Shown: positions 7,219 to 64,000 of the stretch, piece after piece | Layout of the letters: every line of letters starts with the position of its first letter | Position numbering within the stretch: the first letter of the stretch is position 1 | Assembly (NCBI GenBank): GCA_002733135.1 | Contig: NVUJ01000002.1 | Location: forward strand, 1 to 64,000 | Length of the DNA stretch: 64,000 bases | Direction of reading: 5' to 3' | Source of the DNA: Cycloclasticus sp. | GTDB lineage: Bacteria; Pseudomonadota; Gammaproteobacteria; Methylococcales; Cycloclasticaceae | Position numbers and translations under genes: made by a program | Notes under the pieces: generated by a model | The model's database searches: none | What the model saw: only the letters and a program-made list of their open reading frames with translations | Told to the model about the DNA's origin: nothing

Positions 7219-8080
7219 TTAGAGGGTGTTAGCCCTCTCATATTCATGAGGGCTTACATAACCCAAATACGAATGTCTTCGTTGTCGATTGTAAAACACT
7301 TCAATATATTCAAACAAACTTTGTTTTGCTTGCTCTCTTGTTCGGTAATCTTCATCATCAACCAATTCGACCTTTAATGTTCCGAAGAAACTCTCCGCCA
7401 CCGCATTATCATAACATTCACCTTTACGGCTCATACTGGGCAGCATGCCGTGATCATTAAGCAGTGATTGGTAATCGCCTGAGGATAGGTACTGCCTTGA
7501 TCGGAATGCACGATAACCGGCATTTCCGTGCGCCGATGAGAGATTGTCATCTGTAAGGCATCAACAACCAGTTTCGTGTTGTTACGCTCACTCATTGCTC
7601 AGCCTATGACTTGACGTGAGTATAAATCAAGCATCATTGCAAGGTACAGCCAGAGCCCTGACGGGTGCGTATAAAGGTCGTATCCGAGACCCAGGCCTGA
7701 TTTGGTCTGTCGGTTCGAAATTCCCTTTTCAACTGATCAAGCGCAGGTGCTAGGGTGTTTTTAGAGTTCGTCGTTATAACAAAACGTTTTGCCATCTTTG
7801 CCTGAATACCAGCAACCCTCATTAGTTTTGCAACACGGTTAATACTGACACTTTCTCCGGAAGCTATCAGGTCTTTATGGATCCTAGGCGAGCCATAGGT
7901 TTGACGACTTGATTGATGGAAACAGCGAATCTTAGTGATTAAGCTACTATTACTGCGTTGTGTCTCACTAGGGCGTCTATCTAGCCAATCGTAATAACCA
8001 CTAGTCGACACATTTAACGCTGCACATAAATGAGTTAATGCATGTCGCCGTCGATACTTTTTAATGAATGCGTACTTCAC
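7219..8080 (-). pseudogene. IS3-family transposase orfB, frameshifted
   Basis: The DDE catalytic parts are all present but in different frames. AWVSDTTFIRTRQG holds the first Asp, HSDQGSTY the second, and YDNAVAESFFGTLK the Glu. The frame is lost after RTRQG (the next frame reads LWLYLAMMLDLYSRQVIG). A TGA follows that family-typical text at what is normally a Trp codon, and a second shift occurs after SDQGSTY. At least two frameshifts and one stop therefore inactivate the transposase. Confidence 0.88.
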
Positions 8081-8110
8081 TTGAGTTCCCTTGCACCAAA
8101 AGTAGGCGCT

Positions 8111-8410
8111 TTAGGCGAAGTACGCTGCGGCCTTTTTTAGAATATCAACTTCCTCTCGAAGGCGATCGTTTTCCTGTCGAAGTGTCACTATTTCGCTTTG
8201 GCTTTCTTTAAGTGGTCGGCCTAGTTTATTTGAAAAGGTCTTGTCGCCTTTATGTTCAAGCTGCTCTTTCCATTTATACAACTGGTTGCGGCGGATGCCT
8301 AACTGCACCGCCAGTTCTGATGAGGGTTTTTCAGACTCAATCATCAACCGAACCGCTTCTATTTTGAATTCTCTGGTGTACGTTTTATATGGTTTTCTTT
8401 TGCTATTCAT
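8111..8410 (-). CDS. IS3-family transposase orfA (helix-turn-helix)
   Basis: A 99-residue protein with the HTH_Tnp_1 layout: a TREFKIEAVRLMIES start, an LGIRRNQLYKWKEQL recognition helix, and a leucine-rich coiled coil (LRQENDRLREEVDILKKAAA) ending in the usual LKKAAAYFA. In intact elements a frameshift at this end joins orfA to orfB, but here orfB is broken. The protein could still be made and bind the element ends. It belongs to the element and not to the surrounding operons. Confidence 0.85.
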   Translation of the reverse strand: MNSKRKPYKTYTREFKIEAVRLMIESEKPSSELAVQLGIRRNQLYKWKEQLEHKGDKTFSNKLGRPLKESQSEIVTLRQENDRLREEVDILKKAAAYFA

Positions 8411-8483
8411 ATGGATACTCCTTATGCGACATTGTCGCTTATTTAAAGTATCCGTTAAACTAGGTGAGCCTCAAATCTGTGAA

Positions 8484-8529
8484 ATAAAAAAAGCCCCTGG
8501 TCGTACAATTTTGGTATGACCAGGGGCTT
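8484..8529 (-). terminator. Rho-independent terminator of the urate-oxidase-domain membrane gene
   Basis: A 12-bp perfect stem (AAGCCCCTGGTC at 8491-8502 with its complement at 8518-8529) around a short loop. Read on the minus strand it is followed by a run of T (A-run at 8484-8492 on the plus strand). It lies 12 bp past the stop of the minus-strand gene ending at 8541 and directly beside the IS3 end. Confidence 0.9.
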
Positions 8530-8540
8530 CTTAAAATTAT

Positions 8541-9137
8541 TTAAAACAAGTTACCGTGACCGTACGCTGTCATTGACAAAAGCATTGGAACTGAAAGTAG
8601 AACATTCGTTCTTGATGCCATTGAAGCAACCACTTTAGCTGAAGCAATTTCATCAGCTGTAGCTTCAACAATACCCAATATTTTCTTTTGATTTGGCCAA
8701 ATCAATACCCATACATTAAATAGCATAATAGTACCTAGCCATGCGCCAACTCCAATAACAGGGCTCGCCAAAGTAAATGCATTCATAATACCTACACCCG
8801 TGGACTCTAGTGCGCTAACACCCGTTAACCATGTAACAGCAGCCGACATACGGAACCAAAGTAAAGCACGTGGCGCTACGTATTTGCCGATAGCTGCAGG
8901 ACCAGGACCACCTTCGTCACCTAATGCTTCTGCCATAGCAGGCACCTGCACAAAGTTAAAGTAATACAGTAGGCCAATCCAAGTAATGCCCACAATCACG
9001 TGTAGCCAAACAGTGGCCTCAAGCATATTGAAATTGCCAGAACTATCCCATCCAAAGACTGCAATCAGAATTGCAAGAACAAAACCCGCTGCAATAGTCG
9101 CTTTAATACTCGCTAAAAGTTTTTTAATTAAACCCAT
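8541..9137 (-). CDS. Membrane protein with urate-oxidase N-terminal-type domain (PuuD-like)
   Basis: A 198-residue integral membrane protein with about four to five hydrophobic segments and conserved histidine/tryptophan features (ATVWLHVIVGITWIGLLYYF, then NVWVLIWPNQKKILG). This looks like the membrane domain PF06181 found in PuuD-type urate hydroxylases and in stand-alone proteins of unknown role. No C-terminal cytochrome c domain is present, so it is the short form and urate oxidation cannot be claimed. It is monocistronic with its own terminator. The upstream 157-bp gap has an AGGAGAA-like ribosome site before ATG 9137. Confidence 0.65.
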   Translation of the reverse strand: MGLIKKLLASIKATIAAGFVLAILIAVFGWDSSGNFNMLEATVWLHVIVGITWIGLLYYFNFVQVPAMAEALGDEGGPGPAAIGKYVAPRALLWFRMSAAVTWLTGVSALESTGVGIMNAFTLASPVIGVGAWLGTIMLFNVWVLIWPNQKKILGIVEATADEIASAKVVASMASRTNVLLSVPMLLSMTAYGHGNLF

Positions 9138-9294
9138 TGTTATTCTCCTATGTTAAGTAAATGGTGGTTTATTATGCATCCATAGTGTTAATAAGTCTTA
9201 TTGTTTATTCATTTAAATTGGTTTTTTGTACCTATTAACGTTCATTACGATGAGTATAATGAATATTTAAATTGTTTGTAACAAAGGACGTAAA

Positions 9295-9678
9295 TTGGAC
9301 TTATCCACACCCGCGCTACTCTTTCCAGCTATATCACTGCTATTACTGGCCTATACCAACCGATTTATGGGCTTAGCTAATGTAATTCGCGGCTTGCATG
9401 GGCAAATTAATGACAGCAACAAAGAGCTAATCGCACGTCAAATCATCAATTTGAGATTGCGCATTAAACTTATTATTTGGATGCAAATTTTAGGTGTGCT
9501 TAGTATCAGCTTTTGCGTGGTAACAATGTTTTTACTATTTGTAGAATCCGCGCAATTAGGCCAAGCAATGTTCCTTATCAGTATGTTGTTAATGCTTCTT
9601 TCATTAGCCGTATCGCTGTACGAATTGAAAATATCAGGTAATGCGTTAACGATTGAGTTAGAAGATTTAGATCGCTAG
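9295..9678 (+). CDS. DUF2721 family membrane protein
   Basis: A 127-residue protein with an N-terminal hydrophobic helix (TPALLFPAISLLLLAYTNRF), a basic amphipathic middle (RQIINLRLRIKL), two further membrane helices and a short acidic tail. The pattern, with ANVIRGLH after the first helix, matches the DUF2721 family. The function is unknown. The start is TTG 9295; an AAAGGA ribosome site 8 bp upstream supports it, and the only upstream in-frame ATG runs into a stop. It converges with the carbonic anhydrase gene, with 6 bp between stops. Confidence 0.72.
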   Translation: MDLSTPALLFPAISLLLLAYTNRFMGLANVIRGLHGQINDSNKELIARQIINLRLRIKLIIWMQILGVLSISFCVVTMFLLFVESAQLGQAMFLISMLLMLLSLAVSLYELKISGNALTIELEDLDR

Positions 9679-9684
9679 CAAGCG

Positions 9685-10296
9685 TTAAACAAACGTAGAT
9701 TGCCCTGATATAGGCGTTTCTATTAGGTCCTTTAGAATGCCATTCTCAATGTTGTATATCCAACCATGTACGTGAAGATCCACCTCGTTTTTCCACGCGT
9801 TTTTTACAATGGTTGTGTTACAAACGTTACTAACCTGCTCAATCACATTCAACTCACATAAACGATCAAGCTTATCGGTATCATCCAAATTGTTTAGTTC
9901 TTGCTGATTTAAACGACTCACATCTTTAATATGGCCGAGCCAGTTATCAATAAGCCCGTGGTCTTTATCTTCAAGTGCTGCTGCAACCCCGCCACAACCG
10001 TAGTGACCGCAAACAATAATGTGTTTGATTTTAAGCACCTCCACGGCAAATTGAATCACCGATAAACAGTTCAAATCAGTATGCACCACCACGTTGGCAA
10101 TATTACGGTGTACAAACACCTCACCCGGCGCCAAGTTGATAATTTCATTAGCAGGCACACGGCTGTCAGAACAGCCAATCCATAACAATTCGGGTGCTTG
10201 AAGTTTAGATAAGCGTAGAAAAAAATCCGGGTCTTCTTTAAGGATAGACTCAGCCCAAGCTTTATTGTTTTTAAATAAATGTTGCAGGGTTTGCAT
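9685..10296 (-). CDS. can: Beta-class carbonic anhydrase
   Basis: About 203 residues from the chosen start, close to E. coli Can (220). The zinc site is plain: Cys and Asp in WIGCSDSRVP, and His and Cys in CGHYGCGG. The HTDLNCLSVIQFAVEVL segment is nearly the family consensus. It interconverts CO2 and bicarbonate in the cytoplasm, supplying bicarbonate for carboxylations. The ATG at 10296 (MQTLQHLFKNN) is preferred because homologues start here; an upstream in-frame ATG at 10362 would add 22 atypical residues. Confidence 0.92.
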   Translation of the reverse strand: MQTLQHLFKNNKAWAESILKEDPDFFLRLSKLQAPELLWIGCSDSRVPANEIINLAPGEVFVHRNIANVVVHTDLNCLSVIQFAVEVLKIKHIIVCGHYGCGGVAAALEDKDHGLIDNWLGHIKDVSRLNQQELNNLDDTDKLDRLCELNVIEQVSNVCNTTIVKNAWKNEVDLHVHGWIYNIENGILKDLIETPISGQSTFV

Positions 10297-10441
10297 AGCG
10301 GTAAATTGCCTAACTATTTGACGTGTTGAAAGTGTACCGCAAAGCGTAGGGTTACTCATCAACCAATTTTAAAATCGTTCAGTTGTTCGTGGGTAAATTT
10401 GGGAGTATGCTGAATTTATCGTCAATGAAAAGGAGATAAAC

Positions 10442-10651
10442 ATGAGTCATCATACCTATAAACATATCGAAATCACCGGCAGTTCAGAAGTAGGGTCGGA
10501 CGACGCGGTTAACAACGCTATCGAAACAGCATCCAAATCGGTAAAAAACATGGACTGGTTTGAAGTAATAGAAACCCGTGGGCATATCGTTGATGGTGGC
10601 ATCAAACATTGGCAAGTGACTATCAAGGTTGGTTTTAGATTAGAAGATTAA
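10442..10651 (+). CDS. Dodecin family flavin-binding protein
   Basis: A 69-residue protein matching dodecin from end to end: HTYKHIEITGSSEVGSDDAV, then NAIETASKSVKNMDWFEV with the tryptophan that stacks on flavin, and a final WQVTIKVGFRLED strand. Dodecins form hollow dodecamers that store or buffer riboflavin/FMN in the cytoplasm. A strong AAAGGAGA ribosome site precedes ATG. It stands alone between carbonic anhydrase (divergent) and the CmcJ-like gene. Confidence 0.93.
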   Translation: MSHHTYKHIEITGSSEVGSDDAVNNAIETASKSVKNMDWFEVIETRGHIVDGGIKHWQVTIKVGFRLED

Positions 10652-10678
10652 AACTATTTATCATAATCATCGTTTTTA

Positions 10679-11491
10679 TTGGGCACATTGAAAGCATCCC
10701 TGCAATTTCTAGAATCGATTGATAAAGAAGCTGTTTTTATAGCAAACCCAGCGGGCGAGGAAATTAAGCCACACCAAGGGCAATACCAAAATATAGAGGT
10801 GTCTTTACTCAGCGGTAGACAATTTATCAACAAATTCAGTCTTGATTTAGAAGGTTTTCGACTGGCTAAACATCCAACGGCAGTTAAAAATTTTTTAAAC
10901 GATGATGAAGTAAGCGATATCTATGAAAACGAATTAATTGAACTGCTAAAAAAACAAACTGGTGCGCAACAGGTCGAAGTTTTTGATCATACCCGCCGTT
11001 CGACATCGTCTAAAACTCGTCTCGAAAAAAAGCTGCGCGAAGGCGTATTTCTTGTCCATAACGATTATTCTTCAAACTCTGGTATTCAGCGTCTTAAAGA
11101 TTACCTTGCCGAAAACCCCGAAGTAACGACAGATGTATTAAAAAAGCAGTTTGCCATCGTCAATGTGTGGCGTTCAATGGCTGGCGTGGTTAAAAATCAT
11201 ACTTTAGCGCTTTGTGATGCAACGAGTTTAGGCCCTAACGACCTCGTTTCTATTAAAAGAAAAAGTGACAACCGTGAGGGCGAAATTCAATTCGCTTTTT
11301 TCAATGAGGCGCAGCGTTGGTTTTATTTTCCGGAACTTAACGCCGATGAAGTACTTATATTTAAAACATTTGATTCACAAACCGACGGACGCGCGAGATT
11401 CACACCACATACCGCCTTTTCAAATAAAAATTCAGATGACGATGACTTTATTCGTGAAAGTATTGAGTCACGTTGCTTTTTATTTTTCTAG
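10679..11491 (+). CDS. CmcJ/NvfI-like putative Fe(II)/2-oxoglutarate oxygenase
   Basis: A 270-residue protein. An HxD pair occurs in FLVHNDYSSNSG, and a later conserved histidine lies in GRARFTPHTAF. The NVWRSM and WFYFPELNADEVLIFKTFDS segments are shared with the CmcJ/NvfI/AsaB group, fungal and bacterial proteins that include Fe(II)/2OG oxygenases and GA4 desaturase-like enzymes. The substrate is unknown. No ribosome site is clear at the TTG 10679 start, so the true start may differ by a few codons (TTG 10688 is in frame). It is followed 21 bp later by the Sel1 gene. Confidence 0.65.
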   Translation: MGTLKASLQFLESIDKEAVFIANPAGEEIKPHQGQYQNIEVSLLSGRQFINKFSLDLEGFRLAKHPTAVKNFLNDDEVSDIYENELIELLKKQTGAQQVEVFDHTRRSTSSKTRLEKKLREGVFLVHNDYSSNSGIQRLKDYLAENPEVTTDVLKKQFAIVNVWRSMAGVVKNHTLALCDATSLGPNDLVSIKRKSDNREGEIQFAFFNEAQRWFYFPELNADEVLIFKTFDSQTDGRARFTPHTAFSNKNSDDDDFIRESIESRCFLFF

Positions 11492-11512
11492 CTAAAAAAG
11501 CGCTCTAAAAGC

Positions 11513-12058
11513 ATGAAAAAATCTTACCAAATCATATTCTTTTTACTACTGCTTATTCCTTTATATTACGGCGGCATACTGTGGTTGGAAAGGGCAGCTA
11601 ATAAAGGTTACGCAGATGCCCAAAATGATTTAGCATTACGTTATCAACACGGTGATGGGGTTACTCAAAGCGACGAGAAAGCCATTGAGTGGTTCACAAA
11701 AGCAGCAGAACAAAATTATGCAGCCGCTCAGTATGATCTAGCTAGAATGTACGCAGCAGGACGAGGCGTAACGCAAAGTTTTGAAACAGCAATGGTGTGG
11801 CATACCAAATCGGCAGAACAAGGTTATGCCCGTTCTCTATACGAAATAGCGCTAATGCATCAAGCGGGGCAAGGTACGGAGAAAAGTTTAATCAAAGCGC
11901 ATATGTTTGCGCAAATTGCCTCGTCTAATGGTCACGCTAAAGCTATTGATCTAAAAAACCACCTGACCGACATCATGGCGGAAGAAGACGTTAAAAAAGC
12001 GCAGTTGCTTGGAAAGCAGTGGGTCGTTAAGCGAACTAACGGCACGCTTGGGCAATAA
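11513..12058 (+). CDS. Sel1-repeat membrane-anchored protein
   Basis: 181 residues. There is one N-terminal membrane segment (IIFFLLLLIPLYYGGILWL), then three Sel1-like 36-residue repeats (ANKGYADAQNDLALRYQHGDG; AEQNYAAAQYDLARMYAAGRG; AEQGYARSLYEIALMHQAGQG) and a helical tail. Sel1 repeats form an alpha-alpha solenoid for protein-protein contact, probably periplasmic here because of the signal anchor. No specific partner can be named. Its last 23 bp overlap the end of the opposite-strand VWA gene. Confidence 0.8.
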   Translation: MKKSYQIIFFLLLLIPLYYGGILWLERAANKGYADAQNDLALRYQHGDGVTQSDEKAIEWFTKAAEQNYAAAQYDLARMYAAGRGVTQSFETAMVWHTKSAEQGYARSLYEIALMHQAGQGTEKSLIKAHMFAQIASSNGHAKAIDLKNHLTDIMAEEDVKKAQLLGKQWVVKRTNGTLGQ

Positions 12059-13172
12059 GTTTAACGGCTTGTTTTAGCGAATCCAAGCTGTGTGCAGGGG
12101 CATGCTTGTCGATATACGGCATGGCAAATTGCATAGGGCCTTTATCTGGGTTATAGCCCTCTCGGCCCAACATCGGGTTAAGCCAAATAATCTTTTTTGA
12201 GGTTTGTTTAATGTGCTTTAACTCGCCTGCCAGTTGCTCGGGTTTATTGGTGTCAAAACCATCACTGATGATAATGAACACAGTTTTAGAATTCAGCGTT
12301 TTAGCCGCGTAGAGACGATTAAACTTGTTCAGCGAGTCTGCAATGCACGTACCTCCCATCCAAATATTATTGTGTTCTTCCAGTTTCGTTCGCATTTTCT
12401 CAATAGAAGGTTCCCGGTAATATTCGGTTACCTTAAAAAGTTCAGTGTGAAATGCAAACGCTTCGCTGGTTTTAAATGCCCGAATCAAGCCGCGCGCAAA
12501 ACGAAACAATAAGGGGTTATTCCACGTCATTGAATGAGAGACATCGTGCAAAATCACCAAATGAATCGGTTTTTTACGGCGGTTACGATAAAATAATTTA
12601 AGCGGTTGGCCGCCTTGCGATAAATTGCGGCGAATCGTTTGCCGTATATCAATTTTCGAGCCTTGCGGTTTAATCACGTATTGATAACTCAACCGTTTAT
12701 TAAGTTTTAATGCCAATTGTTCGGCCAGCTTCTCAATCTCGTACATCGCCTTATGGTTGTTTAAAAAACGAAAATCAGCTTTCGAAAAGGTGTTTTGCTT
12801 GCCAGCGCCAACAGTAGTGTCGCCCGACATGTCTTTTATCAAGTCCGGCGCTTCGTGCGAGCTACCACTAAAGCCTGTAATCTTGTTGCTAGGCAGTTGC
12901 GGTAAGCCGCTTATGTCAACGTTAGACGGTTGCCCTGTATCCGTAGCGGGTAACCAATAAAAATCAAACAAACGATCAAATTGCTGCCATTCCAAACGGC
13001 TATGGCAAGACAGCGCTCGAAGAATGTTTTTGGTCTGCTTCTTGTCTGTTAGAACGTCACTGCCCAAACTGGTTAACACGTCCAAAATTTCACGCACACC
13101 AATATTAAAACCCGTGTCGCGCAAAAAATGCACAAAACTAATCAGACGGCTGGTGGGTTGGGTGGCTACCAT
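12036..13172 (-). CDS. VWA domain-containing CoxE-like protein
   Basis: 378 residues. The C-terminal half is a von Willebrand A domain with a MIDAS-like motif (LHDVSHSM, usually DxSxS) and FIISDGFDTN. The N-terminal half is the conserved helical part of CoxE-like proteins. Such proteins pair with MoxR ATPases to insert metals or remodel protein complexes. The ATPase gene lies immediately upstream (9-bp gap). No CO dehydrogenase or methanol dehydrogenase genes are near, so the client is unknown. It overlaps the Sel1 gene tail to tail. Confidence 0.82.
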   Translation of the reverse strand: MVATQPTSRLISFVHFLRDTGFNIGVREILDVLTSLGSDVLTDKKQTKNILRALSCHSRLEWQQFDRLFDFYWLPATDTGQPSNVDISGLPQLPSNKITGFSGSSHEAPDLIKDMSGDTTVGAGKQNTFSKADFRFLNNHKAMYEIEKLAEQLALKLNKRLSYQYVIKPQGSKIDIRQTIRRNLSQGGQPLKLFYRNRRKKPIHLVILHDVSHSMTWNNPLLFRFARGLIRAFKTSEAFAFHTELFKVTEYYREPSIEKMRTKLEEHNNIWMGGTCIADSLNKFNRLYAAKTLNSKTVFIIISDGFDTNKPEQLAGELKHIKQTSKKIIWLNPMLGREGYNPDKGPMQFAMPYIDKHAPAHSLDSLKQAVKLIAQACR

Positions 13173-13181
13173 TGGAAGGTG

Positions 13182-14063
13182 CTATGAAACGTTATTAATC
13201 AGCTGCGTCATTTCAGCGTTATTTAAACGCGTCACATCGTCTTGCGTTTTCAATAAGCAACTTTTAGAAGATTGAATCACAAAATCGCTGGCCGTTAGTT
13301 CAGTAATGCCTTGCCCCATCAATGCAGTCGCCCAATCCAATGTTTCAGCCACGCCAGGTTGTTTGCGCAATTCAATATCACGTAATTGCTGTAAAAATGT
13401 CGCTATTTGCATCGCTAATTTATCCTGAATCTCCGGCAATCGCGTATGAATAATACGCAGTTCTTTTTCATAACTGGGGTATTCCATGTAGTGATACAAA
13501 CAACGCCTACGTAGCGCATCGCTTAGCTCACGCGTGCCGTTAGAGGTAAGAATAACCTTGGGAATAGACGCCGCCTTAATCGTGCCAAGCTCAGGAATCG
13601 TAATTTGAAAGTCCGACAACAACTCCAATAAAAACGCCTCAAATGCCTCGTCCGTACGGTCAATTTCATCAATCAACAAAACAGGCGAAGTAGGCTGGCG
13701 AATGGCCTTTAACAAAGGCCGTTCTAACAAAAACTCATCGTTAAAAATATTAGACTCTTTGTGCTGATACGACGACCCCGCATCCTCCATCATCTTAATA
13801 GATAGCAACTGATGCGAGTAATTCCACTCATAAACAGACGTACTCGCGTCCAAGCCCTCGTAACACTGTAAACGAATCAAAGGGCAGTCATACACCTCAG
13901 ACAACACCTTAGCGATTTCCGTTTTTCCCACACCCGCTTCGCCTTCAATTAGTAATGGCCGTTGGAGTGAATCCATTAAGGATAGAGTGGTTACTAAATC
14001 AGCATCCGCAATGTATTGGTGCTGGGCTAATTGTTCGTTTAGGTGTTCGAATTGATCTGTCAT
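13182..14063 (-). CDS. MoxR-family AAA ATPase (CoxD-like)
   Basis: 293 residues. Walker A is GEAGVGKTEIAK (about residues 40-51) and Walker B is PVLLIDEIDRTDEAF. Sensor 1 is VILTSNGTRELSDALRRRC, with the arginine-rich stretch typical of MoxR proteins. These are chaperone-like ATPases working with VWA proteins, and the VWA gene follows directly. The two probably form one operon transcribed leftward from the 14064-14220 gap. Confidence 0.87.
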   Translation of the reverse strand: MTDQFEHLNEQLAQHQYIADADLVTTLSLMDSLQRPLLIEGEAGVGKTEIAKVLSEVYDCPLIRLQCYEGLDASTSVYEWNYSHQLLSIKMMEDAGSSYQHKESNIFNDEFLLERPLLKAIRQPTSPVLLIDEIDRTDEAFEAFLLELLSDFQITIPELGTIKAASIPKVILTSNGTRELSDALRRRCLYHYMEYPSYEKELRIIHTRLPEIQDKLAMQIATFLQQLRDIELRKQPGVAETLDWATALMGQGITELTASDFVIQSSKSCLLKTQDDVTRLNNAEMTQLINNVS

Positions 14064-14220
14064 CAGGTATGCCGCTAATTGAGTGGAATTATCTTAGGAA
14101 TTTTTTGGAGGTAATGCAAATGGTTAGTACCAGATTAAACCATAACAATAAGCTATGGTTGTTGTTATGGAACTAGCCGCATTGGGATAAGGTTAGAACA
14201 AAAGCCTTTTTAATTTCATT

Positions 14221-55069: not shown

Positions 55070-55906
55070 ATGGCGGTAACTCACAGTGAGACACAATGGG
55101 TAGCTTGTGACGGCACACTGATGCACGCCGTCAGATGGTTGCCGGAAGATGAACCTAAAATGGTGGTTTGTCTTATTCACGGTCTGGGCGAGCACAGTGG
55201 TCGTTATCAAGAAATGGCCAAATATTACGCATCTTTCGGTGTGGAGGTGGTGTCTTTTGATTTGCGAGGACACGGTAAGTCGGATGGGCAACGTGGGCAT
55301 TGTCATGATTTTCAACAATTAATTAGAGACATTGATCGCTTTCTTAATCAAGCATCCAAGATTGATTTAGATAAACCGCACTTTATATATGGACATAGCC
55401 TAGGGGCAACCTTGGCGATTAAATACACATTGGCTCACCCAGGTGAATACAAAGGCGTTATTTTAAGCGCGCCTATGTTAAAGCCAGCATTTGAACCACC
55501 CAAATGGAAAGTGATGTTGGGAAAAAAAATACAATCTTTGTGGCCCACGCTATCGTTATCTAATGAGGTTGATATCAATACCTTGTCTAGAGATAAAGAG
55601 GTGTTGAGAAAGAACAAAGAAGACCCGTTAACGCACGATAGAATTTCAGCAAAGCTTGGAACGCAAATGCTAGAGGTAGGTGAGCAATTATTGCGAGATG
55701 CGTCATTGGTGGGTTTTCCATTGCTGATGATGCACGGTGATGCAGATAGGCTAACGTGTCATAAAGCGTCTACTCTTTTTTCTGAATGCGCTGGTGAACT
55801 GTGCACATTGAAAATTTGGGAAGATTTTTATCACGAGCTCCATCACGAACCACAAAAAGAAGACGTCCACAATTACTGTATAGATTGGATGATTCGCCAG
55901 TTATAG
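55070..55906 (+). CDS. Alpha/beta hydrolase, monoacylglycerol lipase-like
   Basis: 278 residues: oxyanion region CLIHGLGEHSGRY, nucleophile elbow YGHSLGA, catalytic Asp in MHGDADRLT, His in FYHELHHEP. The pattern SFDLRGHGKSDGQRGH is typical of the lysophospholipase/monoglyceride lipase group (serine aminopeptidase S33-like fold). No signal peptide. The last 6 bp overlap the opposite-strand mltF. Confidence 0.85.
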   Translation: MAVTHSETQWVACDGTLMHAVRWLPEDEPKMVVCLIHGLGEHSGRYQEMAKYYASFGVEVVSFDLRGHGKSDGQRGHCHDFQQLIRDIDRFLNQASKIDLDKPHFIYGHSLGATLAIKYTLAHPGEYKGVILSAPMLKPAFEPPKWKVMLGKKIQSLWPTLSLSNEVDINTLSRDKEVLRKNKEDPLTHDRISAKLGTQMLEVGEQLLRDASLVGFPLLMMHGDADRLTCHKASTLFSECAGELCTLKIWEDFYHELHHEPQKEDVHNYCIDWMIRQL

Positions 55907-57319
55907 GGCTGGAGTACGAATATTAAAGGCGTCCTCAGCGTTGATGTTGTCTTGGATAGGCGTCGTGGCTAATTCGTATTGGGTTAGCAATTCAAAATAT
56001 TGTCGAATATTTTTGACGTAGGTGACGGGTTCTTTTCCTCTTGCGTATCCGTGCTTTGTTTTTTTATACCATTTTCTTTCTGTTAGCAGGGGGAGTCGCT
56101 GTTCCACATCAATCCATTTATCGGGATCGCCTCCTTGTCGCTGAGTCAAAACGCGTGCGTCTTCCAAATGGCCTAAACCTATATTATAGGATGCGAGCGC
56201 CATCCAGGTTTTATCAGGTTCAGCGATTCGTTCTGGTATTTTCTTTAATCGTGTCGAAAGATAATGACTACCGCCATCAATGCTTTGTGCAGGGTCGAGA
56301 CGATTCAAAACCCCCATATGTTTGGCGGTTGCTTTAGTTAACATCATAATGCCGCGAACCCCGGTAGGTGATATAGCGTGCTGATTCCAGTGCGACTCTT
56401 GATAGGCTACAGCAGCTAATAGCTTCCAATCTATACCGTATTTTTTAGACGCCACGTGAAAGGACTTCTCTAGTTTTGGCAGCCTACTTTGGAGGTGTCT
56501 TCTAAAGGTGCAAATATTGACGTAGTTTAAATTTTTAGAGTAGCCAAAATGTTTATCTTGAAGTTGTTTTAATACCCCAGACTCTTTTAATTCAGTAAGA
56601 AATATGAGGGCCTCGTCGTAAAGGCTGTTGTCATTACTCAGGGGGAATGCCCAAGCGATTTTTTCAGGCTCGGCAATATTAAAAGCGCTGTTTAACTGAG
56701 GGAACTGGCTTCGGTACGTTTGAAATTGGTTTGAATCAGCAACCGTGTAATCGAGCAAGCCACTATTTACCATACTCACGAGTTCAAAAACATTGGTGTT
56801 GTTGGCTTCAACCCAAGACAGTGATGAGTTGTCTTTTTTTAGACGGCGTAAATTCTCTGCATGACTAGTGCCAGCGAGAACCTCAAAAAAAGAATCGTTT
56901 AAGTATTTAAGTGATTTTGGGCGACGAGACCGATAGTGATATATCACCTGCTGCGTCACCTCGTAATAGGGTTGGGTGAAGTGTAAAAGGTGTTCGCGTT
57001 GAGGCGTCACACTTAAGCCAGCGGCTGCAAAATCTGCTTCATGCTCAGCTGTAAGCTTTAATATATCGTGAAATTGTTTGGGTAAGACGAAGCGTGCTCG
57101 AACGCCAAGTTTTACAGCGAACAGAGTAGCAAGGTCATACTCAAAACCTTTTTCGCCGGCTTCATTAATCGTATATGTGGTCGGGTCGAGGCGGGTTAAA
57201 ACAATTAACTCACCACGGTTTTTTACTTGTTGTAGAGCGGAAAGAGGCTTAGAGCAGCTGGATAGGAATAGCCAGCATAAAAAAACAAAAAAGATTGCTA
57301 ATAAAGTTTTTTTATCCAT
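55901..57319 (-). CDS. mltF: Membrane-bound lytic murein transglycosylase F
   Basis: About 472 residues: lipoprotein signal (lipobox LSSC), a solute-binding-protein-like domain (GELIVLTRLDPTTYTINEAG, then GFEYDLATLFAVKLG), and C-terminal lysozyme-like SLT domain with catalytic Glu in AVAYQESHWNQ and GVRGIMMLTKATAKHMG. It cuts glycan strands of peptidoglycan at the outer membrane. ATG 57319 is preferred over TTG 57325. Confidence 0.94.
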   Translation of the reverse strand: MDKKTLLAIFFVFLCWLFLSSCSKPLSALQQVKNRGELIVLTRLDPTTYTINEAGEKGFEYDLATLFAVKLGVRARFVLPKQFHDILKLTAEHEADFAAAGLSVTPQREHLLHFTQPYYEVTQQVIYHYRSRRPKSLKYLNDSFFEVLAGTSHAENLRRLKKDNSSLSWVEANNTNVFELVSMVNSGLLDYTVADSNQFQTYRSQFPQLNSAFNIAEPEKIAWAFPLSNDNSLYDEALIFLTELKESGVLKQLQDKHFGYSKNLNYVNICTFRRHLQSRLPKLEKSFHVASKKYGIDWKLLAAVAYQESHWNQHAISPTGVRGIMMLTKATAKHMGVLNRLDPAQSIDGGSHYLSTRLKKIPERIAEPDKTWMALASYNIGLGHLEDARVLTQRQGGDPDKWIDVEQRLPLLTERKWYKKTKHGYARGKEPVTYVKNIRQYFELLTQYELATTPIQDNINAEDAFNIRTPAL

Positions 57320-57369
57320 GCGCAATAGATTAGTTCACTTTTAATGTGTCGTGTAAAATTATTTAGTAG

Positions 57370-57460
57370 GGAGAGGTACCGAAGTGGTCATAACGGCACC
57401 GATTCGAAATCGGTTGGTCCTTAGCTGGGCACGTGGGTTCGAAACCCACCCTCTCCGCCA
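57370..57460 (+). tRNA. tRNA-Ser (CGA anticodon)
   Basis: 91 nt including encoded CCA. The acceptor stem is GGAGAGG with CCTCTCC, perfectly paired. The anticodon stem ACCGA/TCGGT holds the loop TTCGAAA with anticodon CGA. The long variable arm is of the class II type, and the T arm is GTGGG-TTCGAAA-CCCAC. It reads UCG codons. It lies between mltF (opposite strand) and pmoC; no terminator follows closely. Confidence 0.97.
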
Positions 57461-57691: not shown

Positions 57692-58468
57692 ATGAGTACA
57701 CCTTCAACAGAAATGGGTGGCGATATCTCAAAAGGCCTTATCGGCGGAAAGAGAATTGCTATCATCTTCTTTTCAGTTTTTGCAGTGATGATGGCGTGGC
57801 GCATCTACCAGCAATTATTTGCTTGGGACATGGGTATGGATTCTTTCGAACCTGAATTCCAAACTTACTGGATGAACCTTCTATACGGCCAATGGATTTT
57901 AGAATTCACACTGGCTGCTGTCATTTGGGGTTACCTGCTAAAAACACGTGATAAAGACGTATTTAACATCACGCCACAAGAAGAGCTAAAAAGAACGTTT
58001 ACATTATTAGCTTGGTTGTTCTGCTATGTATGGATTGTATACTGGGCTGCTAGTTTCTTTGCAGAGCAAGATGCATCTTGGCACCAAGTAACAGTACGCG
58101 ATACTGACTTTACACCAAGTCACATCGTATTGTTCTACGGCACAATGCCTGCATACATCCTAGCGGGTGTTGGTGCATTCTTGTACGCTCGTACACGTTT
58201 GCCTCAGTTCGCAGAAAACATCTCAATTCCATTCGTTATCGCAGTGGTTGGTCCTTTCATGATTCTTCCAAACGTTGGTTTGAATGAATGGGGTCACACA
58301 TTTTGGTTTATGGAAGAGTTGTTCACAGCACCTTTACATTGGGGTTTTGTAACACTAGGTTGGACAGCGTTAGCACTAGGTGGTTTGTTAATTCAAATTA
58401 TTCTACGTATAATTACGTTGACTAAACTTGATGATGAAGTTCATGTAACAGAGAAGATGAGCGACTAA
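57692..58468 (+). CDS. pmoC: Copper membrane monooxygenase subunit C
   Basis: 258 residues with about six membrane helices. Copper-site residues can be placed at a constant offset of 29 from Methylococcus PmoC: CuC site D127, H131 and H144 (in AEQDASWH and TPSH), and CuD site N198, H202 and H216 (in LNEWGH and PLHWGF). All are present, so the catalytic copper centres of PmoC are likely intact. AGAGGAAAA precedes the ATG. A strong terminator directly after the gene separates it from pmoA. The 57461-57691 leader is A/T rich and must hold the promoter. The substrate may be methane, short alkanes or alkenes. Confidence 0.93.
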   Translation: MSTPSTEMGGDISKGLIGGKRIAIIFFSVFAVMMAWRIYQQLFAWDMGMDSFEPEFQTYWMNLLYGQWILEFTLAAVIWGYLLKTRDKDVFNITPQEELKRTFTLLAWLFCYVWIVYWAASFFAEQDASWHQVTVRDTDFTPSHIVLFYGTMPAYILAGVGAFLYARTRLPQFAENISIPFVIAVVGPFMILPNVGLNEWGHTFWFMEELFTAPLHWGFVTLGWTALALGGLLIQIILRIITLTKLDDEVHVTEKMSD

Positions 58469-58490
58469 TCAACGTTAGTGGTTTATAAAA

Positions 58491-58518
58491 AAGGGTGCTT
58501 CGGCACCCTTTTTTTTCG
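58491..58518 (+). terminator. Rho-independent terminator between pmoC and pmoA
   Basis: A 9-bp stem AAAGGGTGC-TTCG-GCACCCTTT with a stable UUCG tetraloop is followed by a T run, 22 bp after the pmoC stop. It should end most transcripts before pmoA. Confidence 0.92.
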
Positions 58519-58690: not shown

Positions 58691-59440
58691 ATGAGCGCAG
58701 TACATTCAGTTTCAGCTATTACTACCGCTGAACAACAGCACAGAATTTACAAAGCATTTGATTGGATAATTATCCCAATCGTTGTTTTGGTTGTTATTGG
58801 AGCATTCCATATTCACGCCATGTTAACCATTGGCGATTGGGATTTTTGGATTGATTGGAAAGATAGACGTTGGTGGGTAACAGTAACACCGATATCATTG
58901 ATTTTCTTCCCTGCGGCACTTCATTACCTATTGTGGGAAAACTTTAGACTACCATTCGGCGCAACACTAGCATGTGGTGGCTTATTGATTGGTGAATGGG
59001 CAAACAGAATAGCTAACTTTGTTGGTTGGGCTTACTTCCCACTTAATATGGTTGTTCCTGGGGAAATTATTCCAATGGCGCTATGTTTGGATGCGGTTTT
59101 AATAATCAGTAGAAGCTTGACCATAACCGGTGTTCTTGGTGGGATGTTGTGGGGTATTATTTTCTACCCAGCAAACTGGGCGTTAATAGCTCCATTTCAC
59201 GTACCCGTTGAATACAATGGCGTCATGATGTCTGTTGCGGACTTGATCGGATACAACTACGTAAGAACGGGCACACCAGAATACATCCGTATAATTGAAG
59301 AAGGGACGCTACGAACCTTTGGTGAGGACGTAACGCCGGTATCAGCGTTCTTCGCGGGCTTTATCTCAGTATTAGCGTACTTCTTGTGGCTATACATCGG
59401 TAAATGGTTTTCAAAAACAACTTGGATGAAACGAATTTAG
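58691..59440 (+). CDS. pmoA: Copper membrane monooxygenase subunit A
   Basis: 249 residues, seven membrane helices. It carries the family signatures AMLTIGDWDFWIDWKDRRWWV and FHVPVEYNGVMMSVADLIGY, then NYVRTGTPEYIR. Family-wide text is kept, but the sequence GEWANRIANFVGWAYFPLN departs from typical type I methanotrophs, as in hydrocarbon-oxidising members. Strong AGGAGG lies 8 bp before ATG. The 222-bp gap after the pmoC terminator probably has a second promoter. Confidence 0.94.
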   Translation: MSAVHSVSAITTAEQQHRIYKAFDWIIIPIVVLVVIGAFHIHAMLTIGDWDFWIDWKDRRWWVTVTPISLIFFPAALHYLLWENFRLPFGATLACGGLLIGEWANRIANFVGWAYFPLNMVVPGEIIPMALCLDAVLIISRSLTITGVLGGMLWGIIFYPANWALIAPFHVPVEYNGVMMSVADLIGYNYVRTGTPEYIRIIEEGTLRTFGEDVTPVSAFFAGFISVLAYFLWLYIGKWFSKTTWMKRI

Positions 59441-59478: not shown

Positions 59479-59522
59479 TTATAAATTCATTACATTTAAA
59501 ATAATATAGATTGAGGAAGAAT

Positions 59523-60758
59523 ATGTTAAATTTTAAAAAATCAGTATTGATGCTATTGGCTATTATGGTTGGTTGCATCGCGTTATACGCTGCGCCTGCA
59601 ATGGCTCATGGTGAGAAATCACAAGCGGCGTATTTAAGAATGCGTACCTTATTATGGTACGACGTTGAAGTGTCAACCACTAAACTCAAGGTTAATGAAG
59701 AGTTAGTGATGACAGGCAAGTTTTATTGGTTCTATGATTGGCCAAGTAACATTGCTAAACCTGAAGTTGCGTTTTTAAACATTGGTATTCCAGGCCCTGT
59801 GTTTATAAGAAAAGCTTCTTATATCAATGGTGTGAGTGGAACAAACTCAACACGTTTTGATATTGGTGAAACATATGAATTCAAAGTGATTCTAAAAGCG
59901 CGTCGTGCTGCTAGAGTTCATATGCACGCTTTGATGAATGTTAAAGAAGCGGGTCCTTTAATCGGCCCAGGTCGTTGGGTTGAGGTAACAGGTGATATGG
60001 CTGACTTCACAAACGAAGTAACAACATTAACCGGTGAAACAATTGACCTTGAACATTATGGTTTGGTTAATGCTGTTAAATGGCATATCTTCTGGGGCGT
60101 TATCGCTGCAGCGTGGTTGTTGTACTGGATATTCCAAGGCCCAATCCTAATTCCACGTTACAAAAAAGTGAAATTATTAGGTGATGAAGCCGATGATATG
60201 ATAACACCTGCTAACCGTATGGTTGGCCTAGTGATGTTAATTGGTACAATTGTTGTAGTAACATGGAGCTACTTTAACGCTTATGCTCAATATCCAGTTA
60301 CTATCCCATTACAAAGTGGTCAAATCACAATACCTGCATTACCAGATGCAGCGCGTGGTGTGAATGTTGAAATGATAGATGCTAGATACCGTGTACCAGG
60401 TCGTGCTTTAGAGTTTACAATTAAAGTAACGAACAACACCAATTCACCCATTAAACTAGGTGAATTCACTTCAGCTAACATTCGTTGGATGAACCCTGAG
60501 GTATCACAAGCTGAACCAGCTGATAGCCATGATCCTGTTGCATCGAATGGTATGTCGTATGAAGGTGGTGCGGTAATGCCTGGCCAAACGAAACTTCTTA
60601 AAGCGACATGTACAGATGCTGCTTGGGAAACGTATCGTTTAGCTAAATTGATTTACGACCCAGATAGTCGCTTTGGCGGTTTAATCTTCTTCTTCGACGA
60701 AGAAGGTAACCGTTCGGTAGTGGCCATTGGTGGTCCTTTACTTCCTGTATTTATCTAA
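59523..60758 (+). CDS. pmoB: Copper membrane monooxygenase subunit B
   Basis: 411 residues from ATG 59523, chosen because GAGGAAG lies just upstream; TTG 59511 would start within that site. A signal peptide ends in APAMA, so the mature protein begins with His29 (AHGEKSQ). The CuB ligands are H29, H133 and H135 (RVHMHAL), offset 4 from Methylococcus H33/H137/H139. The bis-His site residues (H48, H72) are replaced by Leu44 and Tyr68. Two cupredoxin domains flank two membrane helices. The terminator follows. Confidence 0.94.
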   Translation: MLNFKKSVLMLLAIMVGCIALYAAPAMAHGEKSQAAYLRMRTLLWYDVEVSTTKLKVNEELVMTGKFYWFYDWPSNIAKPEVAFLNIGIPGPVFIRKASYINGVSGTNSTRFDIGETYEFKVILKARRAARVHMHALMNVKEAGPLIGPGRWVEVTGDMADFTNEVTTLTGETIDLEHYGLVNAVKWHIFWGVIAAAWLLYWIFQGPILIPRYKKVKLLGDEADDMITPANRMVGLVMLIGTIVVVTWSYFNAYAQYPVTIPLQSGQITIPALPDAARGVNVEMIDARYRVPGRALEFTIKVTNNTNSPIKLGEFTSANIRWMNPEVSQAEPADSHDPVASNGMSYEGGAVMPGQTKLLKATCTDAAWETYRLAKLIYDPDSRFGGLIFFFDEEGNRSVVAIGGPLLPVFI

Positions 60759-60778
60759 GGAAAGTTGATGTAAGTCAA

Positions 60779-60808
60779 AAAAGCCCCGCTTTGCGGGGCT
60801 TTTTTTTA
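60779..60808 (+). terminator. Rho-independent terminator after pmoB
   Basis: A 9-bp GC-rich stem AAGCCCCGC-TTT-GCGGGGCTT is flanked by A and T runs, so it can work in both directions. It separates pmoB from the downstream copper-protein genes. Confidence 0.92.
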
Positions 60809-60878: not shown

Positions 60879-61475
60879 GTGCTTAAAACTTTATATATAA
60901 TCGTATTCGCATTAATGAGTACTGCATCATGGGGCCATGGTGGTGTAATGAATGAAGGTAATGAGTGTAAATTACGTGTGGGGCCATATGTAATGAACTT
61001 TTCAGGTTATCAGCCAGAAAACAATGTGTCTAAACAGTTTTGTGATGATATGCCAACCATTGGTAAATCAATCATTGTGTTAGATTTTATCGATAACAAA
61101 CTTCGTGATATGACGGTTAATTTTAGAGTGATTAAGGCCGAAGTTGCTGCATTGGGTACAGCAGATGATGGCAAAGTAAATAATGCAGAATTGGCCCAAA
61201 CGCCGTTTTTTGAAATCCCCGCCAAACGCTATCCAACAGGAACAATGACAATTACGCAAGACTTTAAAGAGAAAGGCCACTTTGTTGGTTATGTAGTCAT
61301 TGAAGGTGAAAACGAAAAATTTATTTCACGCTTCCCATTTTCAGTTGGTTACCCCAACCCAGGCATCCCAGCTGGTTTAAAAATCCCCATTGCTGTATTT
61401 TTGGTGATTATTGTCATTATGATTTGGTTAGCGCGTAGAAAACCAGTGGTTCTTAATGAAAGAAAAGAAGACTGA
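60879..61475 (+). CDS. Secreted, membrane-anchored protein of unknown function with N-terminal His-Gly-Gly
   Basis: 198 residues from GTG 60879 (AAGGAG upstream). A signal peptide LYIIVFALMSTASWG precedes HGGVMNEGNE. Two cysteines (NECKL, QFCDD) could form a disulfide. A beta-rich periplasmic domain and one C-terminal membrane helix (KIPIAVFLVIIVIMIWLA) follow. I do not recognise it as canonical PmoD. If cleavage leaves His at position 1, a histidine-brace copper site is possible, but a partner His is not proven. It is the first gene of the downstream copper unit. Confidence 0.6.
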   Translation: MLKTLYIIVFALMSTASWGHGGVMNEGNECKLRVGPYVMNFSGYQPENNVSKQFCDDMPTIGKSIIVLDFIDNKLRDMTVNFRVIKAEVAALGTADDGKVNNAELAQTPFFEIPAKRYPTGTMTITQDFKEKGHFVGYVVIEGENEKFISRFPFSVGYPNPGIPAGLKIPIAVFLVIIVIMIWLARRKPVVLNERKED

Positions 61476-61506
61476 AAATATAAAAAATTAAACTTAGATA
61501 TATAGA

Positions 61507-63213
61507 ATGAAGAAATCCTCTGTATCCGGATTAATAATGAGCGCAATAACATTAAGTGTTATAGCGCTTTTTCTTTATGATCCTTACTTAATGTATGAAA
61601 GGTTCTTTGAATATACGGGTATGCCTTCGTATAAGGAGGCACCAATTTCTAAACCTAAAGCAGGGTTAGCTAACCCTATGATATGCGATGAGGACTATCC
61701 AGAGTGGCGCAAAGCATATACTATTGGTGGAATAGACATACAAGCTTCTGATGCATGTAATCCAGATAATCCCTACGAAGTTGCAGCCTTTGTAAGAGGC
61801 ACTAATAATGTGATTATGCCGGTGCTGATGAAGACACAGCTATCTGACGACGCAGTGATTAAAACGAATGACCGTGACGGGGATGGTGACCCTGATGACA
61901 TTATTATTCGCGTAGAGGTTGCGGAACTTAATGGACGCTCACCTGATGAACTGGGCTTTATCCCCGGCTTTGAAATTGCCCCGGGCATAAGGCCGGGAGC
62001 TTGGGTGTTTGCACCTAAAAGTCGTGGCATGTCCACTGTCAATCGGCTGGATTTAACGGCTAATCATTTGTTACGACTACCATCAGCCCCAATACGTGTT
62101 GAAGCTGGAGATAACATCACGTTAATCTTAGAAAACACGCATTATTTTCCGCATACTATTCATTTACATGGTGTTGATCATGTGTTTTCGAATAATGACG
62201 GTGTGCCTCAAACCAGCGAAAAGATGACGATGCCGGGTGAGCAGCACGTGTATAAAATGAAACCGCGGCATGCTGGCACTATGATGTATCACTGCCACGT
62301 TCAAGTGCAAGTTCATATGATGATGGGGCTTCAGGGTATTTTTGTTGTTGAAGAAAATAAGCCAAACAATTGGGTACAAACTTTTAATGTCGGGGCTGGT
62401 AAGGTAAGGCATCCATCAGTTGCAGTAATGGAAGATTACGCTCAAGAATACGACATGCATTATCAGGCAATAGATACATCGCTTAATAATATGATTCAAA
62501 CGACAAATGACCCTCGTCAATTGGCTAAAAAAATGAACCGTGTTTACGATATTACTGATGGGACAGACGACTACTTTTTGTTGAATGGTCGCTCATTTCC
62601 GTACACGCTAAGAGAATCGTTAATCACTGTAGAGCCTGACCAACATACTAAGCTTCGCGTATTAAACGGAACGACTGAAGTTATTGCACTACATACGCAT
62701 GGGCATAAGGCGACAATTACTGCATATGATGGGGTTGATGTAAATCCTGCGGCTAGAATAACCCGAGATGTATATGATTTAGCATCTGCTCAGCGCCTAG
62801 ATTTAGATTTATATACCAAGGATGATGGCTTACACAGTTACGGCGAAGGTGTTTGGTTAATGCATGACCATGCCGAACGAGCCATTACTACTAATGGAAT
62901 AAACCCAGGCGGTAACGTCTCGCAGATTGTTTATAGAAAATATCTTAATAAAAATGCAATGGCAAATGTAGAAGGCGGAAGCGTCATGCCTTATTTTAGT
63001 CCTGAGTATTATCAAGGTGAGTTGCCAACATGGAGTGCCTCTGATGCCTTTGGTTGGTGGGACGATGTTGCTGGGCGAAGTATTAGCACCTATAAAGATG
63101 TTATTTTGATTATTGTTTTGGGCATGTTAACCGGTGTACTGTTCCTGCTGTTCAACGTTTGGTACAATTTTTTACATGATATCGCTATTAAGCTTAAGGG
63201 TAGGAGATCATGA
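61507..63213 (+). CDS. Membrane-anchored multicopper oxidase
   Basis: 568 residues: N-terminal signal anchor, EF-hand-like acidic loop (DRDGDGDPDD, about 122-131), then cupredoxin domains, and a C-terminal membrane helix (VILIIVLGMLTGVLFLLF). Trinuclear-site pairs are H219/H221 (IHLHG), H262/H264 (HCH), H396/H398 (HTHG) and H453/H455 (HDH). The type 1 copper Cys is C263 with H270, in the first catalytic domain rather than the last, like NirK-like or type B two-domain oxidases. Its stop overlaps the cupredoxin start by 4 bp. The role may be copper oxidation or electron transfer for Pmo. Confidence 0.85.
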   Translation: MKKSSVSGLIMSAITLSVIALFLYDPYLMYERFFEYTGMPSYKEAPISKPKAGLANPMICDEDYPEWRKAYTIGGIDIQASDACNPDNPYEVAAFVRGTNNVIMPVLMKTQLSDDAVIKTNDRDGDGDPDDIIIRVEVAELNGRSPDELGFIPGFEIAPGIRPGAWVFAPKSRGMSTVNRLDLTANHLLRLPSAPIRVEAGDNITLILENTHYFPHTIHLHGVDHVFSNNDGVPQTSEKMTMPGEQHVYKMKPRHAGTMMYHCHVQVQVHMMMGLQGIFVVEENKPNNWVQTFNVGAGKVRHPSVAVMEDYAQEYDMHYQAIDTSLNNMIQTTNDPRQLAKKMNRVYDITDGTDDYFLLNGRSFPYTLRESLITVEPDQHTKLRVLNGTTEVIALHTHGHKATITAYDGVDVNPAARITRDVYDLASAQRLDLDLYTKDDGLHSYGEGVWLMHDHAERAITTNGINPGGNVSQIVYRKYLNKNAMANVEGGSVMPYFSPEYYQGELPTWSASDAFGWWDDVAGRSISTYKDVILIIVLGMLTGVLFLLFNVWYNFLHDIAIKLKGRRS

Positions 63214-63863
63214 TGAAGTTCCCCTGTCAAAGTTTGATGCTTACATTACTCATCGTTTTTGCCACAGCCGCTCAAGCTGAAATGAGCCATATGGGCATGA
63301 GGATGGGTGAATGGGGCATGGTTATGAATGAAAACTATGATCAGCTGCCACAAGGCTGTGACGCTATTGCTGGCGAAGTGAATGTTACTATTAAGGCTGG
63401 AAGAGAGTATGCGAAAGAGTTTCCCGGCACTATTTTTGGTTATAGTCAGCATGAGTTCGATTTTCCTAAATGTACACGTGTGAATGTTACCTTTATTAAT
63501 GAAGACAATATTCGTCACCAATTTATGATTCATGGTTTGCCAACTTATTTACACCCCCAAGGGATGTTTCATTTGGAGCTGTATAGCAAGGGTGAAATAA
63601 CAGGAACTTTTATTACCCCGAAAACAGAACAGACCTATTTGGCGCACTGTGACGTTGCGCAACACATGGAAAAGGGTATGAAAGCCCAGATTAAAGTTGG
63701 CGGTGGAAACGGCAATTTACCTTCTATCCCTGGTATTTCAGGACAACTAAATAAAGATGTGTATGAACTTGATTTGAGTATAGAGAATATTCTTTTAATC
63801 TTTGCACTGTTTATATTAGGGCTATCAAGTTGTTTGTTTTTCTTCGTTTGGTATAAAGCTTAA
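63210..63863 (+). CDS. Membrane-anchored cupredoxin with Met-rich N-terminus
   Basis: 217 residues. A signal peptide ends near AAQA and is followed by the Met/His-rich stretch MSHMGMRMGEWGMVM, a possible copper-loading site. A cupredoxin fold has type 1 ligands H103 (IRHQF), C147, H152 and M157 (HCDVAQHMEKGM). A proline/glycine linker and one C-terminal membrane helix end it. It is translationally coupled to the multicopper oxidase and is a likely electron partner for it in the periplasm. Confidence 0.87.
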   Translation: MMKFPCQSLMLTLLIVFATAAQAEMSHMGMRMGEWGMVMNENYDQLPQGCDAIAGEVNVTIKAGREYAKEFPGTIFGYSQHEFDFPKCTRVNVTFINEDNIRHQFMIHGLPTYLHPQGMFHLELYSKGEITGTFITPKTEQTYLAHCDVAQHMEKGMKAQIKVGGGNGNLPSIPGISGQLNKDVYELDLSIENILLIFALFILGLSSCLFFFVWYKA

Positions 63864-63940: not shown

Positions 63941-64000
63941 ATGTTTGAAGACTTAGTCGAAGAGTACGGAATCTTTGGCCTATTTATTAGTGCATTTATT
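63941..64000 (+). CDS. YqaA/DedA-like membrane protein, N-terminal part
   Basis: 20 codons before the window ends: FEDLVEEYGIFGLFISAFI. This is the typical N-terminus of YqaA-type (SNARE-associated/VTT domain) inner-membrane proteins. Only this much is visible, and it is separated by 77 bp from the cupredoxin gene. Confidence 0.5.
   Translation, partial: MFEDLVEEYGIFGLFISAFI

Follow-up and report, generated by a model that had tools for sequence, protein, structure and literature searches.

A PmoD, multicopper oxidase and cupredoxin gene trio beside pmoCAB in Cycloclasticus: a candidate membrane-bound copper-handling cassette

The ways in which particulate methane monooxygenase (pMMO) and its relatives acquire and retain copper, and the role of PmoD, are open questions (PMC6189053). 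Both are raised by a stretch of 64,000 nucleotides from Cycloclasticus sp. (assembly GCA_002733135.1, contig NVUJ01000002.1, positions 1 to 64,000; hereafter, the window), where three tightly packed genes follow the pmoCAB genes of a copper membrane monooxygenase. Do these genes handle copper, and do they do so for the monooxygenase? The predicted features of the three proteins and their distribution among genomes suggest that they form a membrane-bound, periplasmic copper-handling (cuprous-oxidase-like) cassette in bacteria running a copper membrane monooxygenase, a reading to which we give a probability of about 0.5. The trio comprises:

60879..61475, + strand: gene 1, pmoD homologue with a GTG start (by phmmer to PDB 6cpd and the motif classes of PMC6189053)
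61507..63213, + strand: gene 2, predicted two-domain multicopper oxidase (Pfam Cu-oxidase_3/_2; PDB 3g5w, 2zwn)
63210..63863, + strand: gene 3, predicted tail-anchored cupredoxin (Pfam Cu-oxidase_2, 1.2e-6; structure model; conserved ligands)

The three open reading frames share a strand, with 31 bp between genes 1 and 2 and a 4-base overlap of the gene 2 stop and gene 3 start; by this packing, they are probably carried on one transcript. Hydropathy identified transmembrane (TM)-like segments in all three products (residues 160–193 in gene 1, 4–28 and 526–556 in gene 2, and 184–217 in gene 3), and the signal peptides of genes 1 and 3 were judged by eye. A sequence-only reading of the window had proposed that the genes are coupled or closely spaced, that their products are membrane-anchored, that two of them have clear copper sites and that the third may mature to a His-Gly-Gly N terminus. 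All of this agrees with what we found, including copper ligands that do not vary across the aligned oxidases (68 of 68) and cupredoxins (71 of 71). Two further claims, that canonical pmoD is absent and that the oxidase is a three-domain laccase with an unusual type 1 copper site, are contradicted by the identities of genes 1 and 2.

By homology, gene 1 is itself a pmoD. Its product matches PmoD (PDB 6cpd) across the periplasmic domain (phmmer, E 4.4e-14) and has the hallmarks of this protein: a signal peptide, two conserved cysteines in the periplasmic domain (C30 and C55) and a C-terminal TM segment. The absence of pmoD is therefore rejected. The motif of the gene 1 protein is Cx8M..C rather than the Cx7MxH or Cx7MxHxnC of CuA-forming PmoDs, and valine and asparagine occupy the alignment columns where the CuA-forming protein has methionine and histidine. 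A PmoD of the Cx8M..C class that has been tested binds copper without a CuA site, and the class commonly occurs near oxidase genes (PMC6189053). Among 43 aligned PmoDs from trios (L012 left out), the CuA methionine column holds methionine in 2 and the CuA histidine column holds histidine in 25. Most trio PmoDs of other genomes lack the Cx8M..C spacing of the window protein, 25 of the 43 having histidine in the column after that methionine. Cleavage of the gene 1 product at the predicted point would expose His-Gly-Gly. The N-terminal histidine is kept in 38 of the 43 proteins and replaced by aspartate in 5, and the two glycines are present in all 43; His-Gly-Gly is also found in many of the PmoDs listed from outside trios. 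The window's genome (1,756,937 bases in 24 contigs, 83.3% complete) has two more PmoD-like genes in tandem (L027:7952-8995, G000:C17), with no pmo gene in that stretch.

Gene 2 codes for what its sequence identifies as a two-domain multicopper oxidase with the type 1 site in domain 1. The closest PDB chains are 3g5w (E 6.6e-27) and 2zwn, each aligned in two stretches; we take both to be 'type C' enzymes from Nitrosomonas europaea. Three-domain laccases have the type 1 cysteine in the third cupredoxin domain, while two-domain oxidases with the type 1 site in domain 1 are homotrimers with trinuclear sites between subunits. The window protein has PH, HLH and HCH motifs in domain 1 and HTH and HDH, with no type 1 cysteine, in the last domain. 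The HCH of domain 1 with its type 1 cysteine, the HDH of the last domain and the trinuclear histidine set are shared with 3g5w and 2zwn. The match to these chains and the positions of HCH and HDH are the grounds on which we reject a three-domain laccase. The first-domain cysteine had looked unusual because the oxidase is of the two-domain type; in this family, as the alignment reads, it is the rule. The type 1 ligands H216, C263 and H270 and the eight trinuclear histidines (219/221/262/264/396/398/453/455) are invariant in 68 of 68 oxidases, an alignment of 75 loci less broken or cut copies (L012, L013, L021, L022, L024 and L141; L013 and L024 possibly stem from a single split gene) and a fusion (L023). 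Unlike 3g5w and 2zwn, the window oxidase has membrane anchors at both ends and an N-terminal extension with five aspartates, conserved in 68 of 68. Its structure model had a confidence score (pLDDT) of 49.5 and was left out of the fold comparison; therefore, both M273 and L275, each conserved in 67 of 68, stand as axial type 1 candidates. Relatives with at least 79% identity to the oxidase came from records named Cycloclasticus or Piscirickettsiaceae. Finite ratios of nonsynonymous to synonymous substitution rates (dN/dS) were 0.03–0.10, with dS saturated in several comparisons.

The sequence and structure model of the gene 3 product point to a tail-anchored type 1 cupredoxin. A PDB sequence search returned no match at E 0.1; the model (pLDDT 76.9) matched laccases and auracyanin in Foldseek. 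The protein satisfies the type 1 pattern His...Cys-x4-His-x4-Met on a cupredoxin fold, with H103 or H108, C147, H152 and M157 as predicted ligands. These five residues are invariant in 71 of 71 aligned cupredoxins, as is M39, which forms a Met-x-Met motif with M37 (69 of 71). Furthermore, the cupredoxins of L015 and L016 carry Met/His repeats (MDHSQHM).

The presence of the oxidase in a genome largely follows that of pmoB (Fisher values and counts here ignore kinship and the missing pieces of incomplete genomes). Within the genus, 13 of 18 genomes carry the oxidase and the same 13 carry pmoB (Fisher 1.2e-4). We also analyzed 200 genomes drawn from the order of G014, which include close relatives of the window, and found the oxidase in 192 (E 1e-40) and pmoB in 175 (174 over the curated cut-off); G211 was counted as pmoB-negative since it was missing from the positive rows, and five pmoB-negative genomes were not individually listed. 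Every pmoB-positive genome (175/175) has the oxidase, and all 8 genomes without the oxidase also lack pmoB (Fisher 2.0e-8). In a sample of 369 genomes of the class, the oxidase (E 1e-60) and pmoB were each present in 11 genomes and together in 9 (Fisher 9.5e-15); the oxidase occurs alone in G264 and G384. These distributions support a genome-level link between the predicted copper module and the monooxygenase. With its oxidase present in every one of the 175 genomes of the order sample that have pmoB, the cassette adds two proteins to study in tractable methanotrophs.

The gene order around the oxidase was read by profile searches over the stretches fetched for 75 oxidase loci, picked largely from the best-listed matches and not as a random sample. 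Among the 74 loci that extend 1,000 bases or more downstream, 71 have the cupredoxin gene directly behind the oxidase gene; no cupredoxin was found at L141 and L148, and at L023 the cupredoxin comes first and is fused. Of the 67 loci reaching 1,400 bases or more upstream, 42 have PmoD immediately before the oxidase (44 of all 75). On an oxidase tree of 61 rows, built with a quick method, the label 'PmoD upstream' required 2 changes, against a mean of 18 after shuffling. The fusion (L023:273-2840), from a distant relative, is a single open reading frame of 856 amino acids joining a cupredoxin, CusF and a two-domain oxidase. CusF is recognized in three stretches (Pfam CusF_Ec, 1.3e-35), which, as we read the sequence, lie two before and one behind the oxidase domain. 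This arrangement, by its domain content, ties the oxidase-cupredoxin pair to Cu(I) binding. Searches of the genome with the fusion found no pmoB or pmoA. Pairs without PmoD (L014, L018, L071 and relatives, from Methylothermaceae and relatives) adjoin genes that we presume to encode a cyclodeaminase and a methylene-tetrahydromethanopterin (H4MPT) dehydrogenase. One trio (L012:7376-7854 and 7989-9691, in G027) has frame breaks in the pmoD and oxidase genes, from decay or assembly error, and pmoB elsewhere in the genome.

Is the trio part of the pmo operon? The following features of the window (locus L025) bear on this question:

57692..58468, + strand: pmoC, copper monooxygenase subunit C (Pfam AmoC, 1.4e-103)
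58691..59440, + strand: pmoA, copper monooxygenase subunit A (Pfam AMO, 1.2e-110)
59511..60758, + strand: pmoB, copper monooxygenase subunit B (Pfam Monooxygenase_B, 7.8e-144)
60777..60805, + strand: terminator-like hairpin with a 13-pair stem and a T tail, between pmoB and pmoD
55901..57325, − strand: MltF-like gene, left border of a syntenic block (borders the left side of the trio in relatives too, whether pmoCAB is present or not)
63941..64000, + strand: start of a YqaA-like gene, right border of the block (continues past the window end, L025:8941-9375)

The names MltF and YqaA are our presumed assignments for the two border genes. Terminator-like patterns numbered 9 against 5.1 in shuffled sequence, so weight was given to long stems only. 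The sequence-only reading had described the trio as a tail behind pmo. The adjacency to pmoCAB stands, but a hairpin with a T-rich tail (−13.6 to −24.9 kcal/mol; best of 10 shuffles per gap, −12.4) separates pmoB from pmoD in 10 of 11 such gaps, while the gaps inside the trio have none or weaker ones (at best −10.7 kcal/mol). Furthermore, the trio occupies the same place without pmo. The order MltF–pmoCAB–trio–YqaA of the window recurs at L009, L011 and L019, and MltF–PmoD–oxidase–cupredoxin–YqaA without pmoCAB is found within the genus (L012, L111 and L114) and in other genomes of the order (L081, L086, L089, L101 and L104, in G152, G194, G133, G157 and G176, all with pmoB elsewhere). We therefore rejected the idea that the cassette is merely the tail of a pmo operon, though it may still be transcribed together with pmoCAB. 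The cassette is probably older at this place than its pmoCAB neighbor, judging from these gene orders, for which loss of pmoCAB from the block in some relatives is an alternative explanation. One genome (G034) has an MltF-pmoCAB half and a trio-YqaA half on separate contigs (L116 and L007), with other genes at the pmoB/pmoD break.

We propose that the cassette acts at the periplasmic face of the inner membrane. PmoD would bind copper and pass it on. The oxidase and a cupredoxin dedicated to it would work as a pair: the oxidase would oxidize Cu(I), or receive electrons from its partner, at the type 1 site and reduce O2 to water at the trinuclear site. Periplasmic copper would thereby be held in a safe form that can be loaded into copper enzymes of the membrane, above all the monooxygenase. 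In the organism of the window, the cassette would belong to the older MltF-[trio]-YqaA block, with a pmoCAB copy sitting between MltF and the trio. That copper is the substrate of the oxidase is suggested mainly by its fusion to CusF in L023 and by the Met/His repeats in the cupredoxins of L015 and L016.

Several observations weigh against this proposal. Cuprous, phenol and quinol oxidation by the oxidase cannot be told apart from these sequences, and the model of the enzyme is poor. The oxidase is present in 17 of the 25 pmoB-negative genomes of the order sample and was not found at E 1e-60 in 2 of the 11 pmoB-positive genomes of the class sample (G248 and G433). Moreover, co-occurrence within the order reflects shared descent too. 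The hairpin is missing from the pmoB-pmoD gap of L143 (L142 has one). The sequence-only reading held that a trio lying mostly away from pmo genes would speak against a tie, and our neighborhood survey bears this out in part. At 14 of the 75 oxidase loci, the sequence fetched includes a pmo gene, which lies upstream of the trio at 11 (L008-L011, L015, L016, L019, L025, L108, L142 and L143, out of 44 loci with PmoD) and downstream of the oxidase-cupredoxin pair at three (L068-L070); no pmo gene was seen in the stretches read for the other 61. The trio also occurs in G264, a genome held on one contig and 99% complete, in which searches found no pmoB or pmoA; this counts against a role limited to pmo.

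The G264 locus (L140) brings forward an alternative, namely that the trio serves more generally in assembling or metalating the copper enzymes of the membrane, heme-copper oxidases among them, and is not specific to the monooxygenase. There, the full trio comes immediately after cox2, cox1, two cox3-like genes and cox4 (Pfam). A PmoD paralogue of the window's genome also directly precedes a cox operon (cox2, cox1, cox3 and cox4; L026:8596-9210 and 9392-14153, G000:C2). Yet this is the one trio-cox linkage that we saw, and only 11 of the 369 genomes in the class sample have the oxidase (9 together with pmoB), while cytochrome oxidases are far commoner than that. We consider this explanation unlikely. 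PmoD goes with a copper monooxygenase in 98.5% of 860 sequences (PMC6189053), and the trio beside the cox operon of G264 is a rare departure from this rule.

The copper-binding traits could also mark a plain copper-tolerance cassette, like CueO or CopA, needed by copper-rich bacteria and with no direct role in the monooxygenase. The CusF fusion and Met/His-rich repeats would fit, as would the copper dependence reported from Methylococcus capsulatus, where a PmoD gene with an oxidase gene next to it (MCA2130) is down-regulated without copper (PMC6688271). The same report also favors our own proposal, but the main text of the primary study behind it does not name the gene (PMC4831470), a further point against our proposal. 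The oxidase was not found at E 1e-60 in 358 of the 369 class genomes, no plasmid record among 72,556 searched matches it at E 1e-40, and its presence largely follows pmo. Common copper-resistance genes differ from this pattern, and a tolerance cassette is, in our estimate, quite improbable. We regard as least probable an electron relay in which the monooxygenase receives electrons by way of the cupredoxin and PmoD, and the oxidase serves as a side valve to O2. It would agree with the anchoring of all three proteins (in the orientation predicted), the unvarying type 1 site of the cupredoxins (71 of 71), the genome-level tie to pmoB and the 25 of 43 trio PmoDs with histidine in the CuA histidine column. 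But the CuA methionine is kept in 2 of 43, the window PmoD has neither ligand, the oxidase would compete for the same electrons, the trio exists where pmoA and pmoB were not found, and quinone is favored as the electron donor of pMMO (PMC4831470). A relay through a CuA-type PmoD is disfavored because the CuA motif is missing, and for the window protein we rejected it.

Parts of the proposed copper-handling cassette have known counterparts. Gene 1 resembles the PmoD/AmoD family (Fisher et al. 2018, PMC6189053; PDB 6cpd) in its periplasmic domain, two conserved cysteines, C-terminal TM segment and occurrence with copper monooxygenase genes; it differs in lacking the Cx7MxH CuA motif, in leading a trio with an oxidase and a cupredoxin and in the terminator-like hairpin that separates it from pmoB. 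A pmoD gene adjoins a multicopper oxidase gene in two other copper-monooxygenase bacteria, M. capsulatus (MCA2130) and Methylacidiphilum kamchatkense, for which the passages covered mention no third cupredoxin gene, syntenic block or joining to pmoCAB (PMC6688271). The sections covered of the M. capsulatus genome paper likewise hold nothing on the three-gene cassette (PMC517821). A Cycloclasticus study lists phmo A-D and reports an absence of short-chain alkane genes from cultured strains, with phmo present in the other genomes analyzed; the words pmoD and multicopper do not appear in its main text (PMC12510462).

The CueO, CopA and CutO cuprous oxidase systems also tie a periplasmic multicopper oxidase, of another domain layout, to copper handling; the window oxidase differs from them in its membrane anchors, dedicated cupredoxin and PmoD partner. 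PmoD and its neighborhood with oxidase genes are thus already known. In the open-licence papers searched, we did not find the three-gene cassette described, and the same holds for a cupredoxin as third gene, the rates of co-occurrence, the MltF-YqaA block, the fusion with CusF and a trio next to cytochrome oxidase genes. Of the undescribed copper-delivery or electron-relay module that the sequence-only reading had suggested, the link to pmoB holds at the genome level (13/13 in the genus, 175/175 in the order and 9/11 in the class), while the PmoD-oxidase part is already in print (PMC6189053, PMC6688271) and a CuA-PmoD relay is disfavored by the missing motif. A bolder extension, which we hold doubtful but worth stating, is that PmoD, the two-domain oxidase and the cupredoxin form a dedicated membrane-bound complex that oxidizes and delivers copper. 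Copper monooxygenases of Gammaproteobacteria would have it as a standard accessory that has so far gone unrecognized, as would a cytochrome oxidase in one lineage or more, and it would be one of the components whose absence makes isolated pMMO weakly active.

Other features of these loci complete the picture. The stretch L109:5764-10437 (G024) holds a divergent pmoCAB copy with two PmoD genes behind it, of which the second is similar to the trio type, and no oxidase or cupredoxin gene. A promoter scan gave 20 matches against 20.6 in shuffled sequence. A tRNA-Ser (CGA) gene lies at 57370-57460, between the MltF-like gene and pmoC; we rejected it as an integration mark because it is present at 1 of the 25 loci scanned, the window's own. 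Lastly, a second long terminator-like hairpin at 58487-58514, between pmoC and pmoA, suggests that pmoC may be transcribed apart from pmoAB.

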